From Zhongshania aliphaticivorans (lineage in GTDB: Bacteria > Pseudomonadota > Gammaproteobacteria > Pseudomonadales > Spongiibacteraceae), in contig NZ_CACSIK010000001.1 of NCBI RefSeq assembly GCF_902705875.1, forward strand, positions 2,785,166 through 2,849,165: DNA of 64,000 nucleotides, read 5' to 3'. Shown here one piece after another: positions 27,444 to 31,798 of this stretch. Numbering within the stretch: position 1 is the first letter of the stretch; the number at the start of each line of letters is the position of its first letter. The translations under genes and the position numbers were made by a program. A model generated the notes under the pieces. That model was not told the DNA's origin. It was given only the letters and a program-made list of their open reading frames with translations, and made no database searches.

Positions 27444-27722
27444 ATGACCGTCGCAAGCGCACGTCACATTCTGGTAAAAACCGAACAGCAAGCTCAAGAT
27501 TTAAAAGACCAAATCACCAAAGGCGCCGACTTTGGCGAAGTAGCCAAAAAGTTTTCCGACTGCCCGTCTGGAAAACAAGGCGGTGATCTAGGTGAGTTTC
27601 GCCCCGGCCAAATGGTTAAACCTTTCGACGACGTGGTATTCAAAGAATCCGTTTTAGACGTCCACGGCCCCGTGAAAACGCAGTTTGGCTATCATTTGAT
27701 TCAGACCATTTACCGCAATTAA
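27444..27722 (+). CDS. ppiC: Parvulin-type peptidyl-prolyl cis-trans isomerase
   Basis: 92 residues, the size of E. coli PpiC. It is one rotamase domain: [36 protein letters not shown], and FGYHLIQ at the end. It has no signal peptide or membrane segment, so it is cytosolic. It speeds proline isomerisation during folding. AAGGATC precedes the ATG. No operon partners are seen. Confidence 0.92.
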
Positions 27723-27928
27723 TCTTATCACCACAGCGAGGCATAAATTAAATATGCCTCGTTACTGTAACTTACAACTTATAATCTGAACCAACACAAC
27801 CAGACAACTCAATACCCCCCAAAGATAGCTAACCACGAAAAACCAAACACCAGTGAAGCGACACCGTTACCTTCATTAGTGAGGACGTTATCCGTATTCA
27901 ATTTGATTGAAGGTAAAAAGCCACCCAT

Positions 27929-27960
27929 AAAAAACCCCGCATTCAAAATTGAATACGGGG
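27929..27960 (-). terminator. Rho-independent terminator, minus strand
   Basis: On the minus strand CCCCGTATTCAA and TTGAATGCGGGG form a 12-bp stem with one G-U pair and a 2-nt loop as drawn. It is followed by six T residues (27934-27929). It ends the candidate small RNA and could also catch read-through from the VWA lipoprotein gene. Confidence 0.88.
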
Positions 27961-28024
27961 TAAATCGGAGAGAATCAGAGTGCATTATGTAAATGGGGGT
28001 TTACAAGAGCAACATCACTGACTT
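27929..28024 (-). ncRNA. Candidate Fur-repressed small RNA (RyhB/PrrF-like role)
   Basis: A strong minus-strand promoter (28031-28059) carrying a perfect Fur box fires into a stretch with no good gene and reaches a classic terminator about 95 nt later. Length, Fur control and terminator fit iron-sparing sRNAs such as RyhB and PrrF. The 5' part contains GTTGCTCTTGTAAACCCCC, an unstructured U/C-rich segment that could pair with ribosome binding sites. No sequence identity to known sRNAs is claimed. The transcript start is inferred at about 28024. The main alternative is a regulatory leader for an unrecognised small ORF. Confidence 0.65.
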
Positions 28025-28030
28025 AAATTA

Positions 28031-28059
28031 ATGATAATGATTATCAATTACATAATCAA
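28031..28059 (-). promoter_or_regulatory. Promoter with 17-bp spacing overlapped by a Fur box
   Basis: On the minus strand the -35 TTGATT (28059-28054) and -10 TATCAT (28036-28031; five of six consensus bases) are 17 bp apart. The Fur box fills the spacer and -10, so Fur-Fe(II) would block initiation. Confidence 0.75.
28032..28046. promoter_or_regulatory. Perfect 7-1-7 Fur box
   Basis: TGATAATGATTATCA is an exact 7-1-7 palindrome (TGATAAT-G-ATTATCA), the established core recognised by Fur dimers. Flanking bases (TAA before, ATTA after) extend the AT-rich 19-bp pattern. Confidence 0.85.
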
Positions 28060-28069
28060 TCATTATTTT

Positions 28070-29755
28070 CTAAAAATGTTCATAACTTACAGCAATTTCA
28101 TCCCCTGCCTGCGGTATGGCCTCACCATAAAATACAATAGATGCCTCTTCACTGCCGTAAAGCACATCAAAGCCATCAGTATGGGCGGTATCTCGGCTAA
28201 CCTCGACACCATTCACAGTTACAACCACCGAGCTTGCAATAGGTGTAAAATCCAATTTAAAACTACTGGCTAAACCCGTGGCAGTTTCAATAATTTCATC
28301 ATACATTACAGTCCAAGAGGTTGATGCCGCGCAAATTGACGCTGAACTACCACCCGTCAGAGCGGCAATTTCCCGATAATGTGCACCTCCACCCGCATTA
28401 CCACCGTCACCACTGCAGCTAAAGCTCGAGTCATATGACGCATAAGGATCGTCAAAAGTTTCACGAACCGTCTCATAGGGCCCTGCGATCGCAAAAAACG
28501 TCGCACCGCTATCTATAAACGCTTGCTTATAGGTGGCAAAATCTCTTGTAACATAACTACCGTAACCAGCCCCAGACGGGGTGTAACCATTAGCAGTCTC
28601 ATTCTCAGGCTCGTCAGAAACAAAAATAATAATATTCGGCGCTGACTCTCGATCAAAACCACTTAAATCAACCGTATCAGCACAATAAAAACCGGTTTCA
28701 GTGGCACTTCCGTATGTTCCTGGACGAGCAATACCATCGGGATCATCGCCCCATTGAGCCTCGCCGTCAGGTGTTGAAGGCGAAATATAATTAGCAGTTT
28801 CATCATCTGGCAGGGTCAGTAGTTCGCCACAAGTGGAGCCATCCGTTGTTGTGGCGGCAAGTCTAAAATCCAGGCCCGCTGCATTCAGGCTGTCAAAAAA
28901 TTGATCAATACCATTGCCAAGATTTTCCTGCTCCTCACTCATGGAACCGGAATTATCGATCACCCAGAGAATATCTGCGGCATTATTGGCGCTTTCTACT
29001 TGAGAAAAGGTTTGGCTAGCAGCAGTTGTCGGCGCTGCGACAGCTGTTACAGAGGTAACCGCAGATGCATTATTTACATCACCGTAAGTTTTACCGACTA
29101 GATCGGCAAATTCCGTCGCAAATACCGCTACCCAAGTATATAAGCGCTCTTCGACTTCCCAAAACGCAAGCGTTACTCGGAATTCACGCCCACTATCACT
29201 GCCAACAGGAAGAACTTCTACATCAGCATCCGACCCCAACTCAGCAAGCAGAATATTTCGTAAGTCAGCACTGCTACGACCACCAGAGATGTATTCAACA
29301 TCCAAAACCAAAATGGCAACAGTAGACTGAACACCTGTTATGCTTCTGTTTACTAGCTGGTTTACAGTAGCCCCATCATCAACCAGAGCATCGGTAACAA
29401 TAGCGACCTTAGCATCAATTTCATCTTGCTCTGCAGATGGCTCAGCGTCCGCACGAGCTATTGCCAGCTCCGCCGCTTCCGATTCGACAAAGGCCATCCC
29501 AAAACCGGCATAGCTCACATCCTCATCGTCAAGTAATAATGATGGCCGACTCTCGCCCACTTCCTGAGTGCTGTCCTCTGGAATATCCCCATATAAGGCA
29601 ATACCAGCCCGCTCGCTGGTCACTGCGGCACTAGTCGATGGCTCTTCAACTTCGGGAGGGTTATCGCCTCCACCACCGCTGCCGCCCCCACACGCAGTAA
29701 TACTAAGCGCTGAAAGGCACAGCACTGAGATGAGTAAATTCTTTGGAAAATTCAT
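28070..29755 (-). CDS. Secreted lipoprotein with a von Willebrand A-like domain
   Basis: 561 residues. The signal peptide ends in lipobox SITAC, so Cys22 is lipidated, followed by a glycine-rich GGGSGGGG spacer and an acidic region. A VWA domain begins around residue 262 (DILWVIDNSGSMSEEQ) with the DxSxS metal-ion (MIDAS) motif intact. Later are NIIIFVSDEPENE and TFFAIAG strands. Several paired Cys suggest disulfides in the periplasm or outside. The C-terminus is a small beta domain (SSVVVTVNGVEVSRD, DVLYGSEEASIVFYGEAIPQAGDEIAVSYEH). The protein is very acidic. VWA lipoproteins often bind matrix or other envelope proteins; the partner is unknown. It reads towards the Fur box, which lies just past its stop. 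Confidence 0.8.
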   Translation of the reverse strand: MNFPKNLLISVLCLSALSITACGGGSGGGGDNPPEVEEPSTSAAVTSERAGIALYGDIPEDSTQEVGESRPSLLLDDEDVSYAGFGMAFVESEAAELAIARADAEPSAEQDEIDAKVAIVTDALVDDGATVNQLVNRSITGVQSTVAILVLDVEYISGGRSSADLRNILLAELGSDADVEVLPVGSDSGREFRVTLAFWEVEERLYTWVAVFATEFADLVGKTYGDVNNASAVTSVTAVAAPTTAASQTFSQVESANNAADILWVIDNSGSMSEEQENLGNGIDQFFDSLNAAGLDFRLAATTTDGSTCGELLTLPDDETANYISPSTPDGEAQWGDDPDGIARPGTYGSATETGFYCADTVDLSGFDRESAPNIIIFVSDEPENETANGYTPSGAGYGSYVTRDFATYKQAFIDSGATFFAIAGPYETVRETFDDPYASYDSSFSCSGDGGNAGGGAHYREIAALTGGSSASICAASTSWTVMYDEIIETATGLASSFKLDFTPIASSVVVTVNGVEVSRDTAHTDGFDVLYGSEEASIVFYGEAIPQAGDEIAVSYEHF

Positions 29756-29969: not shown

Positions 29970-31784
29970 TTACGCACCTGCGTCAATTTCAATCAAGACC
30001 TCACCGGGCGTCACTCGGTCGCCCTTGGAAACAAATATCTCAATCACTTTACCGGCGATTGGCGCCTGAACTTCCGCCTCCATTTTCATCGCCTCCGTGA
30101 CCAATACCGCCTGACCAGCAGTAACGGTGTCACCTACCGCCACCAGCACCTCAACAATATTACCGGGCATATTAGTACTAACATGGCCAGGTTTGCTTGC
30201 CGATTTACGGCTATTACTACCTTCTGCTTTATATTCATTGAGGGCTTCGAACACAACTTCTTCAGGCATGCCATCCAAGCTCATATAAATGTGTCGCTTG
30301 CCAGAACCCTTGATACCGACGCCAGTGATCGCCACTTGATAACTCTCACCATGAACATCAATAACAAATTCAGTGGGAACGCCACCCTCACTGACTGGCC
30401 GTGCAGCCTCACCGATTGGCTCTAGCACTTCTGGCACCAAGGTACCTGCTTCGCGCTCTTCCAAAAAGCTACGTCCTAGATCAGGGAACATCGCATACAA
30501 CAAGACATCTTCTTCTGACTTGGCCAGCTCACCCACTTCTTTACGAAGTTTGCTTAACTCTGGAGCCAACAGGTCTGCTGGGCGCACATCAATCACATCT
30601 TCGCTGCCAATGGCCTTGGCTCTTAAATCTTTATTAACCTCTGCAGGCGCTGCTCCGTAATGTCCTTGTAAATAACGCTTTACCTCATTGGTAATGGTGG
30701 TATAGCGCTTATCTGCCAGTATATTCATTACTGCTTGGGTGCCCACTATTTGAGAAGTCGGCGTCACTAATGGTGGATATCCTAGATCCTTACGTACAGC
30801 GGGGATCTCAGCAAAAACATCGTTTATACGATTTAATGCGCCCTGCTCTTTAAGCTGATTAGCAAGATTAGACATCATGCCACCGGGCACTTGGTTAATC
30901 TGTACACCCACATCTTCGCGGGTGAATTCACTTTCAAACTGATGATATTTTTTACGAACATCCCACAATTTAGCACTAATTTCTTGCAGCGCGGGAAGAT
31001 CTAAGCCCGAATCTCTTGGCGTACCTTTAAGTGCTGCCACCATTGTTTCAGTAGCAGGGTGACTTGTGCCACTGGCAAAAGCCGACATCGCGGTATCAAT
31101 AATATCCACACCTGCCTCAATGGCTTTTAACTGACAAAGACCAGCAAGCCCAGAGGTCATATGTGAATGCAACGCTAGGGGAACATCCACAGTGTCTTTC
31201 AGGGCCGATACCAATTCAGATGTGGCGGTGGGCGTTAACAGCCCAGCCATATCTTTAATCGCAATGGAATCAACACCCATTGCCACCATATCTTTAGCTT
31301 GCTGCACAAATTTTGCGGTGTTATGAACAGGGCTGGTGGTGTAGCAAAGCGTCCCCTGCGCATGTTTCCCAGTTTTTTGGACAGCCTCAATGGCCGTCTT
31401 TAAATTGCGAACATCATTCATCGCGTCAAAGATACGGAAGATATCCATACCATTATCAGCAGATTTTTGGATAAATGCTTCTACAACATCATCTGCATAA
31501 TGGCGATAACCTAATAGGTTTTGTCCGCGTACCAACATCTGTAATTTGGTGTTGGGCAAGGCTTCACGCAATTGACGTAAACGCTCCCATGGATCTTCTT
31601 TCAAAAATCGAACACAGGCGTCAAAGGTGGCGCCACCCCACACTTCTAACGACCAAAATCCAATAGCGTCGAGCTGGGCGCACACTGGCAACATATCTTC
31701 TGTGCGCATACGCGTCGCAATCAACGATTGATGACCGTCACGCAAGGCAACATCAGTAATCAGAACAGCTTTTTCTTGGCTCAT
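29970..31784 (-). CDS. pycB: Pyruvate carboxylase subunit B (OadA-like, biotin-containing)
   Basis: About 604 residues. The N-terminal carboxyltransferase barrel has VALRDGHQSLIATRMRTEDM, FWSLEVWGGATFDACVRFL and DMAGLLTP, with QVPGGMMSN at the PYC_OADA end. The biotinyl domain closes the protein with EAMKMEAEV (Lys about 567). It transfers the carboxyl group to pyruvate to give oxaloacetate. Paired with a separate biotin carboxylase gene and no OadB/OadG membrane subunits nearby, it is a two-subunit pyruvate carboxylase as in Pseudomonas, not a sodium-pumping decarboxylase. AAGG upstream favours the ATG at 31784 over 31790. Confidence 0.9.
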   Translation of the reverse strand: MSQEKAVLITDVALRDGHQSLIATRMRTEDMLPVCAQLDAIGFWSLEVWGGATFDACVRFLKEDPWERLRQLREALPNTKLQMLVRGQNLLGYRHYADDVVEAFIQKSADNGMDIFRIFDAMNDVRNLKTAIEAVQKTGKHAQGTLCYTTSPVHNTAKFVQQAKDMVAMGVDSIAIKDMAGLLTPTATSELVSALKDTVDVPLALHSHMTSGLAGLCQLKAIEAGVDIIDTAMSAFASGTSHPATETMVAALKGTPRDSGLDLPALQEISAKLWDVRKKYHQFESEFTREDVGVQINQVPGGMMSNLANQLKEQGALNRINDVFAEIPAVRKDLGYPPLVTPTSQIVGTQAVMNILADKRYTTITNEVKRYLQGHYGAAPAEVNKDLRAKAIGSEDVIDVRPADLLAPELSKLRKEVGELAKSEEDVLLYAMFPDLGRSFLEEREAGTLVPEVLEPIGEAARPVSEGGVPTEFVIDVHGESYQVAITGVGIKGSGKRHIYMSLDGMPEEVVFEALNEYKAEGSNSRKSASKPGHVSTNMPGNIVEVLVAVGDTVTAGQAVLVTEAMKMEAEVQAPIAGKVIEIFVSKGDRVTPGEVLIEIDAGA

Positions 31785-31798
31785 CGTCATATCCTTTT

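Follow-up and report, generated by a model that had tools for sequence, protein, structure and literature searches.

The minus strand of the 64,000-nt stretch of the Zhongshania aliphaticivorans genome analysed here (the window) carries a real and conserved small RNA (sRNA) gene, which to judge from its sequence is very probably controlled by Fur. It is a functional analogue of RyhB and PrrF, but membership in either of these families is not supported, and the sRNA family is probably new, although of a known kind. Taken as a whole, a Fur-repressed trans-acting sRNA with an iron-sparing role is the mechanism we consider likely. With respect to the details we lean, if only slightly, towards a reading in which, in Zhongshania, the 16-nt linker of the new sRNA family is used as two overlapping halves, whereby UGAUUCUCUCC would cover the ribosome site of sodB and CUCUCCGAUUU would dock on a dedicated loop approximately 80 nt upstream of sdhC; this loop would be a co-evolving receptor, the letters of which are kept while its stem changes and which is given up at each decay of the sRNA. 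The RyhB/PrrF-type layout proposed for this locus by a preceding sequence-only reading is supported, since conservation of the unit in 13 genomes and complementarity to sodB and sdhC are what such a layout predicts, and the sdhC site in addition tracks the presence of the sRNA.

According to the proposed mechanism, Fur would in the presence of iron sit on a box that overlaps the promoter, as suggested by the position of the box and the Fur paradigm, while in the absence of iron an RNA of around 96 nt would be made from its own promoter and end at its own terminator. The predicted fold of this RNA, which is conserved, consists of a 5' hairpin, the loop of which is rich in C, followed by the single-stranded linker UCUCUCCGAUUU and the terminator. 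The linker, probably together with Hfq, which is encoded in the genome (E 1.3e-28), would pair with the Shine-Dalgarno region of sodB, encoding an Fe superoxide dismutase, and so may block translation; likewise, it would pair with the GGAGAG that a hairpin in the sdhC 5' leader exposes, and may thereby lower succinate dehydrogenase.

The sequence-only reading, which gave no strand, had described a perfect 7-1-7 Fur box inside a well-spaced -35/-10 promoter, a strong terminator about 95 nt past the start and no protein gene between them, and all of this holds on the minus strand. The -35 hexamer TTGATT (28054-28059; TTGCAA, TTGTAA or similar in the same place in relatives) is separated by a 17-nt spacer from the -10 hexamer TATCAT (28031-28036), and the Fur box TGATAATGATTATCA (28032-28046), a perfect 7-1-7 inverted repeat with 0 mismatches to TGATAATNATTATCA, lies between the two and overlaps the -10 hexamer. 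The sRNA gene itself (27929-28024, approximately 96 nt) runs from a putative start around 28024, placed 7 nt past the -10 hexamer, to a T run, and comprises the 5' hairpin (27973-28023), the inner hairpin of which shows the loop CCCCCA (CCCCC at 27995-27999), the target-pairing linker UGAUUCUCUCCGAUUU (27962-27977) and an intrinsic terminator stem-loop with a 12-pair stem (27934-27961) followed by the U run (27929-27933). The sole overlapping open reading frame of at least 60 amino acids (28031-28273) is located on the plus strand and touches the promoter only, while frames within the RNA reach at most 31 amino acids and none is common to all of the 12 sRNA copies scanned. The fold of the 96-nt RNA has an energy of -29.6 kcal/mol (z -5.8; 0 of 200 shuffles equally good), much of which is supplied by the terminator. 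Inspection by eye showed that CCGTATTCAATTT, one half of the terminator stem, recurs inverted at 27892-27913, about 20 bp past the terminator, which looks as if part of the terminator was copied.

The Fur box is the sole exact match within the 64 kb, where seven matches with up to three mismatches stand against a chance mean of 3.5, the other six having two or three mismatches. The promoter agrees with the consensus in 9 of 12 letters; as six promoter-like sites were found in 2 kb versus 3.3 expected by chance, the hexamers alone carry little weight, whereas their conservation among relatives is informative. In the entire 3.98 Mb genome nine Fur boxes with no more than one mismatch were detected (five exact, four with one mismatch), while the box read backwards as a control gave three sites (3 forward and 3 reverse rows). 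Four of the other eight boxes adjoin genes of the TonB system, which lends support to the reading of the box as a Fur site; one more adjoins a solute-binding protein gene and three have unclear neighbours. The genes near these boxes (L176-L184) include TonB/ExbB, three TonB receptors, one of them with FecR, and the solute-binding protein, together with a porin, an ammonium transporter and a gene which, on visual inspection only, resembles that of a dehydrogenase.

A search of 38 genomes, that is 37 relatives and the genome itself, gave long matches in five congeners. In the following, the genus group consists of 18 genomes (Zhongshania, Spongiibacter and Neomelitea) and the family of 21, the own genome being counted in both. 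An intact copy downstream of oadA is present in 13 of the 18 genus-group genomes, and reading of the loci after oadA in the 21 family genomes recovered more diverged copies with Fur box, hairpin, CTCTCC linker and terminator. A pattern composed of the box edge, the linker and the terminator start occurs in exactly one place in 12 of the 21 family genomes (some of these places were counted as overlapping double matches) and its reversed version in none of the 21; the thirteenth intact copy, in G014, in which the box edge differs, was found by reading its oadA locus. Promoter, Fur box, hairpin, linker and terminator are conserved across the 13 genomes, with none or one mismatch in the Fur box of ten copies and three mismatches in three. 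G006 has kept linker and terminator, but is counted as decayed because its best Fur-box match has five mismatches and the 5' stem is lost, a classification made before the sdhC leaders were examined. By oadA loci and pattern, no copy was found in G002, G009, G010 and G015 nor in three genomes of a second genus.

Beyond the family, a scan for linker plus terminator in 84,980 species, conducted with one strict pattern and possibly leaving out records near the window, returned 11 matches, namely five in Zhongshania, two in Spongiibacter, one in Neomelitea and three in unrelated organisms. Each of the eight Spongiibacteraceae matches is preceded by oadA and, at a distance of 75-88 nt, by a Fur box, whereas the three elsewhere have neither. 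An order-wide pattern search of 293 genomes matched 21, 7 of the genus group and 14 outside; as the reversed control matches 13 genomes, the matches outside the genus group correspond to the chance rate. In the 13 of these outside loci that were read, the Fur box has four to six mismatches and no T run exceeds five, and they were rejected; the fourteenth (G117) is not among the loci read.

With respect to RNA structure, an RNAalifold analysis on a 13-row MAFFT alignment was discarded, having given only four pairs, none of them in the 5' stem, with the arms misaligned; in its place the copies were folded singly and pairs were counted on the one alignable clade. In 13 of 14 individually folded copies the 5' hairpin closes beside the CUCUCC linker and is accompanied by the C-rich loop and the terminator (the G005 copy was folded as the sequence from Zhongshania sp. 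BJYM1, identical over the matched stretch). The 5' domain of 13 of the 14 copies has z values of -2.0 to -5.9 against shuffles, the exception being the decayed copy in G006 (z -0.1). In the alignment of six Zhongshania copies, pairing is kept in 94.6% of cells, versus 36-56% when slid, while covariation within this clade is weak, with one compensatory pair and no better than shuffles; differences between clades with kept pairing rest on the individual folds, which is distinct from a formal covariation test.

Three textbook iron-sparing targets, sodB, sdhC and acnB, were picked beforehand and compared with a background of 353 gene starts (longest-ATG open reading frames of at least 120 amino acids from 464 of 3,979 kb); the GTG starts used for sdhC and acnB are putative. 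In terms of the target list of the sequence-only reading, sdh, sodB and acn, complementarity was found for sodB and sdhC, but not for aconitase, as acnB was rejected with an average energy (133 of 353 starts as good). A GGAG precedes the acnB start in all 18 genomes, with or without the sRNA, and GAGGAG in 17, G009 being the exception.

The sodB product is an Fe-type superoxide dismutase, with 329.5 bits on the NCBIfam SOD[Fe] model, below its cut-off of 348, and Fe-SODs as the closest solved structures. Upstream of the sodB ATG the window genome reads AGGAGAGAATCAC, in which GGAGAGAATCA, the Shine-Dalgarno region, is an 11-nt perfect complement of positions 27967-27977 of the sRNA. This match length is equalled by none of the 353 background starts, and the duplex energy with linker plus stem base is as low in three of them, while the 7 nt matched by the bare linker alone are equalled in ten. 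Genome-wide, GGAGAGAAT occurs 2-9 nt before an ATG in four places (control, one), two of which are long genes, and the sodB match is the longest. In the other clade of the genus group both sides differ, the sRNA reading GUCUCUCC and sodB GGAGAGAC in G004, G011 and G014, while G001, G007, G012 and G013 have just 7 unbroken nt at the sodB Shine-Dalgarno site and the best pairing of G007 is located elsewhere. The sodB locus was read in 17 of the 18 genus-group genomes, G003, which is 84% complete, having given none. Among the five genomes that lack an intact sRNA, G002, G006, G010 and G015 keep GGAGAGAATC at sodB and solely G009, reading CTGGAGGATAGCA, has lost the site. With four of five retaining it, sodB alone does not track the presence of the sRNA, and its site consequently is also a plain Shine-Dalgarno sequence or outlives the sRNA.

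The strongest target result is sdhC. Its leader contains a hairpin approximately 80 nt upstream of the GTG start and downstream of a promoter-like element, TATAAT, that is conserved. GGAGAG is found in the loop region of this hairpin in all 13 genomes that have an intact sRNA and in none of the five that do not, a distribution for which the hypergeometric probability, ignoring descent, is 1/8568. A five-pair stem encloses GGAGAG in all 13, although the minimum free energy (MFE) fold of G011 pairs part of it, and stem pairs 2, 4 and 5 vary by compensation (C-G/U-A, G-C/A-U/G-U) while the GGAGAG letters are unchanged. On a tree of the 18 genomes with three outgroup rows, the state of the sRNA changes three times, in G009, in the G015-G002-G010 clade and in G006, and the sdhC loop is altered on the same three branches. 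The three independent pairs are all concordant; a sign test on three pairs gives p 0.25, which is its minimum, and random placing of the changes by branch length gives a rough probability of ~3e-4 (2.8e-4).

In the window genome, positions 27962-27972 of the linker face the sdhC leader loop. The duplex energy with linker plus stem base is as low in 2 of the 353 background starts, while by length alone the exact match, the 6-nt GGAGAG, is unremarkable (48 of 353). Zhongshania linkers form 11-12 consecutive pairs with the sdhC leader, G-U pairs included; exact matches in the other clade are mostly 6-7 unbroken nt. In G005 and G008, the sdhC complement extends to 9 nt (ATTGGAGAG). In the window copy, the C-rich loop matches the sdhC leader of the same genome over 9 nt (one of 353 starts with as long a match); this match was dropped, as other leaders do not keep it.

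Pairing between clades shows a one-sided preference. Zhongshania sRNAs reach mean energies of -18.6 and -19.0 kcal/mol with their own sodB and sdhC, respectively, versus -14.3 and -13.5 with those of the other clade, whereas the mRNAs of the other clade barely favour their own sRNAs (sodB -14.6 versus -14.3; sdhC -13.2 versus -13.5). Duplex energies calculated with the whole sRNA single out neither target (164 of 353 starts as low for sodB, 139 of 353 for sdhC). Joint first among the 353 starts for the match to the sRNA linker is L175 (8271-8733, minus strand), encoding a 153-aa protein with AATCAGGAGAGAATTATG at the start and AATCAGGAGAGAATT directly before the ATG; neither Pfam nor NCBIfam provided a family name for this protein.

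Can the element be a divergent PrrF orthologue, in which the central core (UCUCCUCAUCARGCUAAUCACGG) has been shortened to UCUCUCC and a few bases? We consider this unlikely. The PrrF1/PrrF2 sRNAs of Pseudomonas (RF00444) are arranged in the same way, with a Fur-box promoter, a 5' hairpin, a linker containing UCUCC and a terminator in succession, as seen in the layout of 20 hits, and genomes over the PrrF cut-off exist in the same taxonomic order: with the best 19 candidates per genome scored in 145 genomes, PrrF-like RNAs were present in at least 44 at E<=1, in at least 20 at E<=1e-5 and over the cut-off in at least four. Among the loci of seven relatives the copy of G011 scored best, with 35.4 bits on RF00444 over its full length. 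These scores nevertheless are far under the cut-off of 90 bits, the window copy reaching 18.4, and the match spans promoter and Fur box. As E<=1 also fires in 3 of 14 control genomes, the conserved core ATCTCCTCATCARGCTAATCACGG was tested separately, and with as many as 3 of 24 positions allowed to mismatch it is absent in 21 of 21 family genomes. In contrast to the single place of the Zhongshania sRNA by oadA, PrrF matches lie elsewhere, often in tandem, and none of the 20 PrrF loci read has the OadA MKME motif within 1.5 kb. In line with the earlier impression of a new sequence, Rfam has no family at the gathering cut-off over the element, permissive thresholds yielding below-cut-off matches only, including PrrF and MicF, and the RyhB covariance model has no match at gathering nor among matches of E<=10. 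As a side observation, G120 harbours three PrrF-like copies in a row (C8:352239-352926; 50.7-59.9 bits), more than the usual tandem pair.

Alternatively, the sdhC leader hairpin could be an RsmA/CsrA-type site to which the linker match is incidental, with sodB only, or neither, being a target of the sRNA. The classical motif of CsrA is a GGA located in the loop of a hairpin, the sdhC loop carries one, and outside Zhongshania the match is, as noted, short. A CsrA-type site is nevertheless a rather improbable explanation, as all six GGAGAG letters persist in the 13 genomes with an intact sRNA under compensatory change of the stem, the complement attains 9 nt in two genomes, and the loop is altered in each of the five genomes lacking an intact sRNA, although the stem halves persist in four of them by sequence and in only two as an MFE fold. 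Even less credence is given to the view that there is no dedicated sRNA, the terminator belonging to oadA or to the VWA-like gene described below, and the Fur box being fortuitous or serving another gene. The distance from the oadA stop to the Fur box is only 15-108 nt in 11 relatives, so that read-through from oadA into the element is conceivable, as is a 3'-UTR-derived RNA; on the other hand, 13 genomes have retained both the Fur box and the promoter, conservation extends to the hairpin, the linker and the sdhC site, and in the window as well as in Zhongshania sp. BJYM1 the unit is complete although an extra gene precedes it.

Among Fur-dependent sRNAs, enterobacterial RyhB, described in two accounts as being under Fur control and targeting sodB and sdhC (PMC9410917, PMC7377471), resembles the Zhongshania sRNA in the predicted Fur control and the sodB/sdhC pairing, but not in a match to the Rfam model. 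PrrF targets are likewise stated to include sodB and sdhC (PMC7377471, PMC13104616). BrrF of Burkholderia cenocepacia is presented as a RyhB/PrrF analogue without sequence similarity, with sdhC and sodB among its predicted targets and regulation reported; according to that account it has no Fur box directly upstream and is thought to be co-expressed with hemP (PMC7377471), whereas the Zhongshania sRNA has its own Fur-box promoter. IsrR of Staphylococcus and FsrA of Bacillus are portrayed as Fur-controlled with C-rich single-stranded pairing regions, FsrA being said to bind the Shine-Dalgarno sequence via a C-rich motif (PMC9410917). They belong to another phylum and no sequence link was found; moreover, IsrR is depicted with three C-rich regions as compared to one C-rich loop and the CUCUCC linker of the Zhongshania sRNA. 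According to these accounts, RNAs of low iron or under Fur control arrive by convergence at shared targets although they are unrelated (BrrF, PMC7377471; IsrR/FsrA, PMC9410917). If our reading is correct, the Zhongshania sRNA would fill the RyhB/PrrF slot in a marine bacterial family where PrrF was not found and would be a further instance in which unrelated RNAs have come to act on the same targets, here sodB and sdhCDAB. In the open-access literature we found no description of an sRNA of this kind in Zhongshania, Spongiibacteraceae, Spongiibacter or Cellvibrionales. The three natural losses, each with a change of the sdhC docking loop, would provide a system to follow the birth and dissolution of sRNA-target pairs and allow one to ask what becomes of iron sparing once the regulator is gone.

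As a syntenic anchor, oadA (pyruvate carboxylase subunit B; 29970-31790, minus strand) neighbours the sRNA in relatives, and a convergent PpiC-type parvulin gene (27444-27722, plus strand) lies on the opposite side in those Zhongshania loci that were read. Between oadA and the sRNA, and outside the latter, the window has a VWA/MIDAS-like open reading frame (28070-29755, minus strand), the stop codon of which is located 23 nt upstream of the Fur box on the same strand; it has no Pfam family and, by NCBIfam, resembles CglD and a MIDAS adhesin weakly. Zhongshania sp. BJYM1 has a gene-sized insert, too, with the sRNA ~2 kb behind the oadA stop, and therefore the unit stays whole when a gene intervenes. 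VWA/MIDAS-like starts after oadA were also noticed by eye in G005 and G010 (L027, L029) and were not seen within 330 nt past oadA in the other oadA loci examined; this gene looks like an accessory gene at the oadA-sRNA junction. In G009 (L032), oadA is directly followed by what we take to be an AbrB/VapB-type antitoxin look-alike and then by another small open reading frame.
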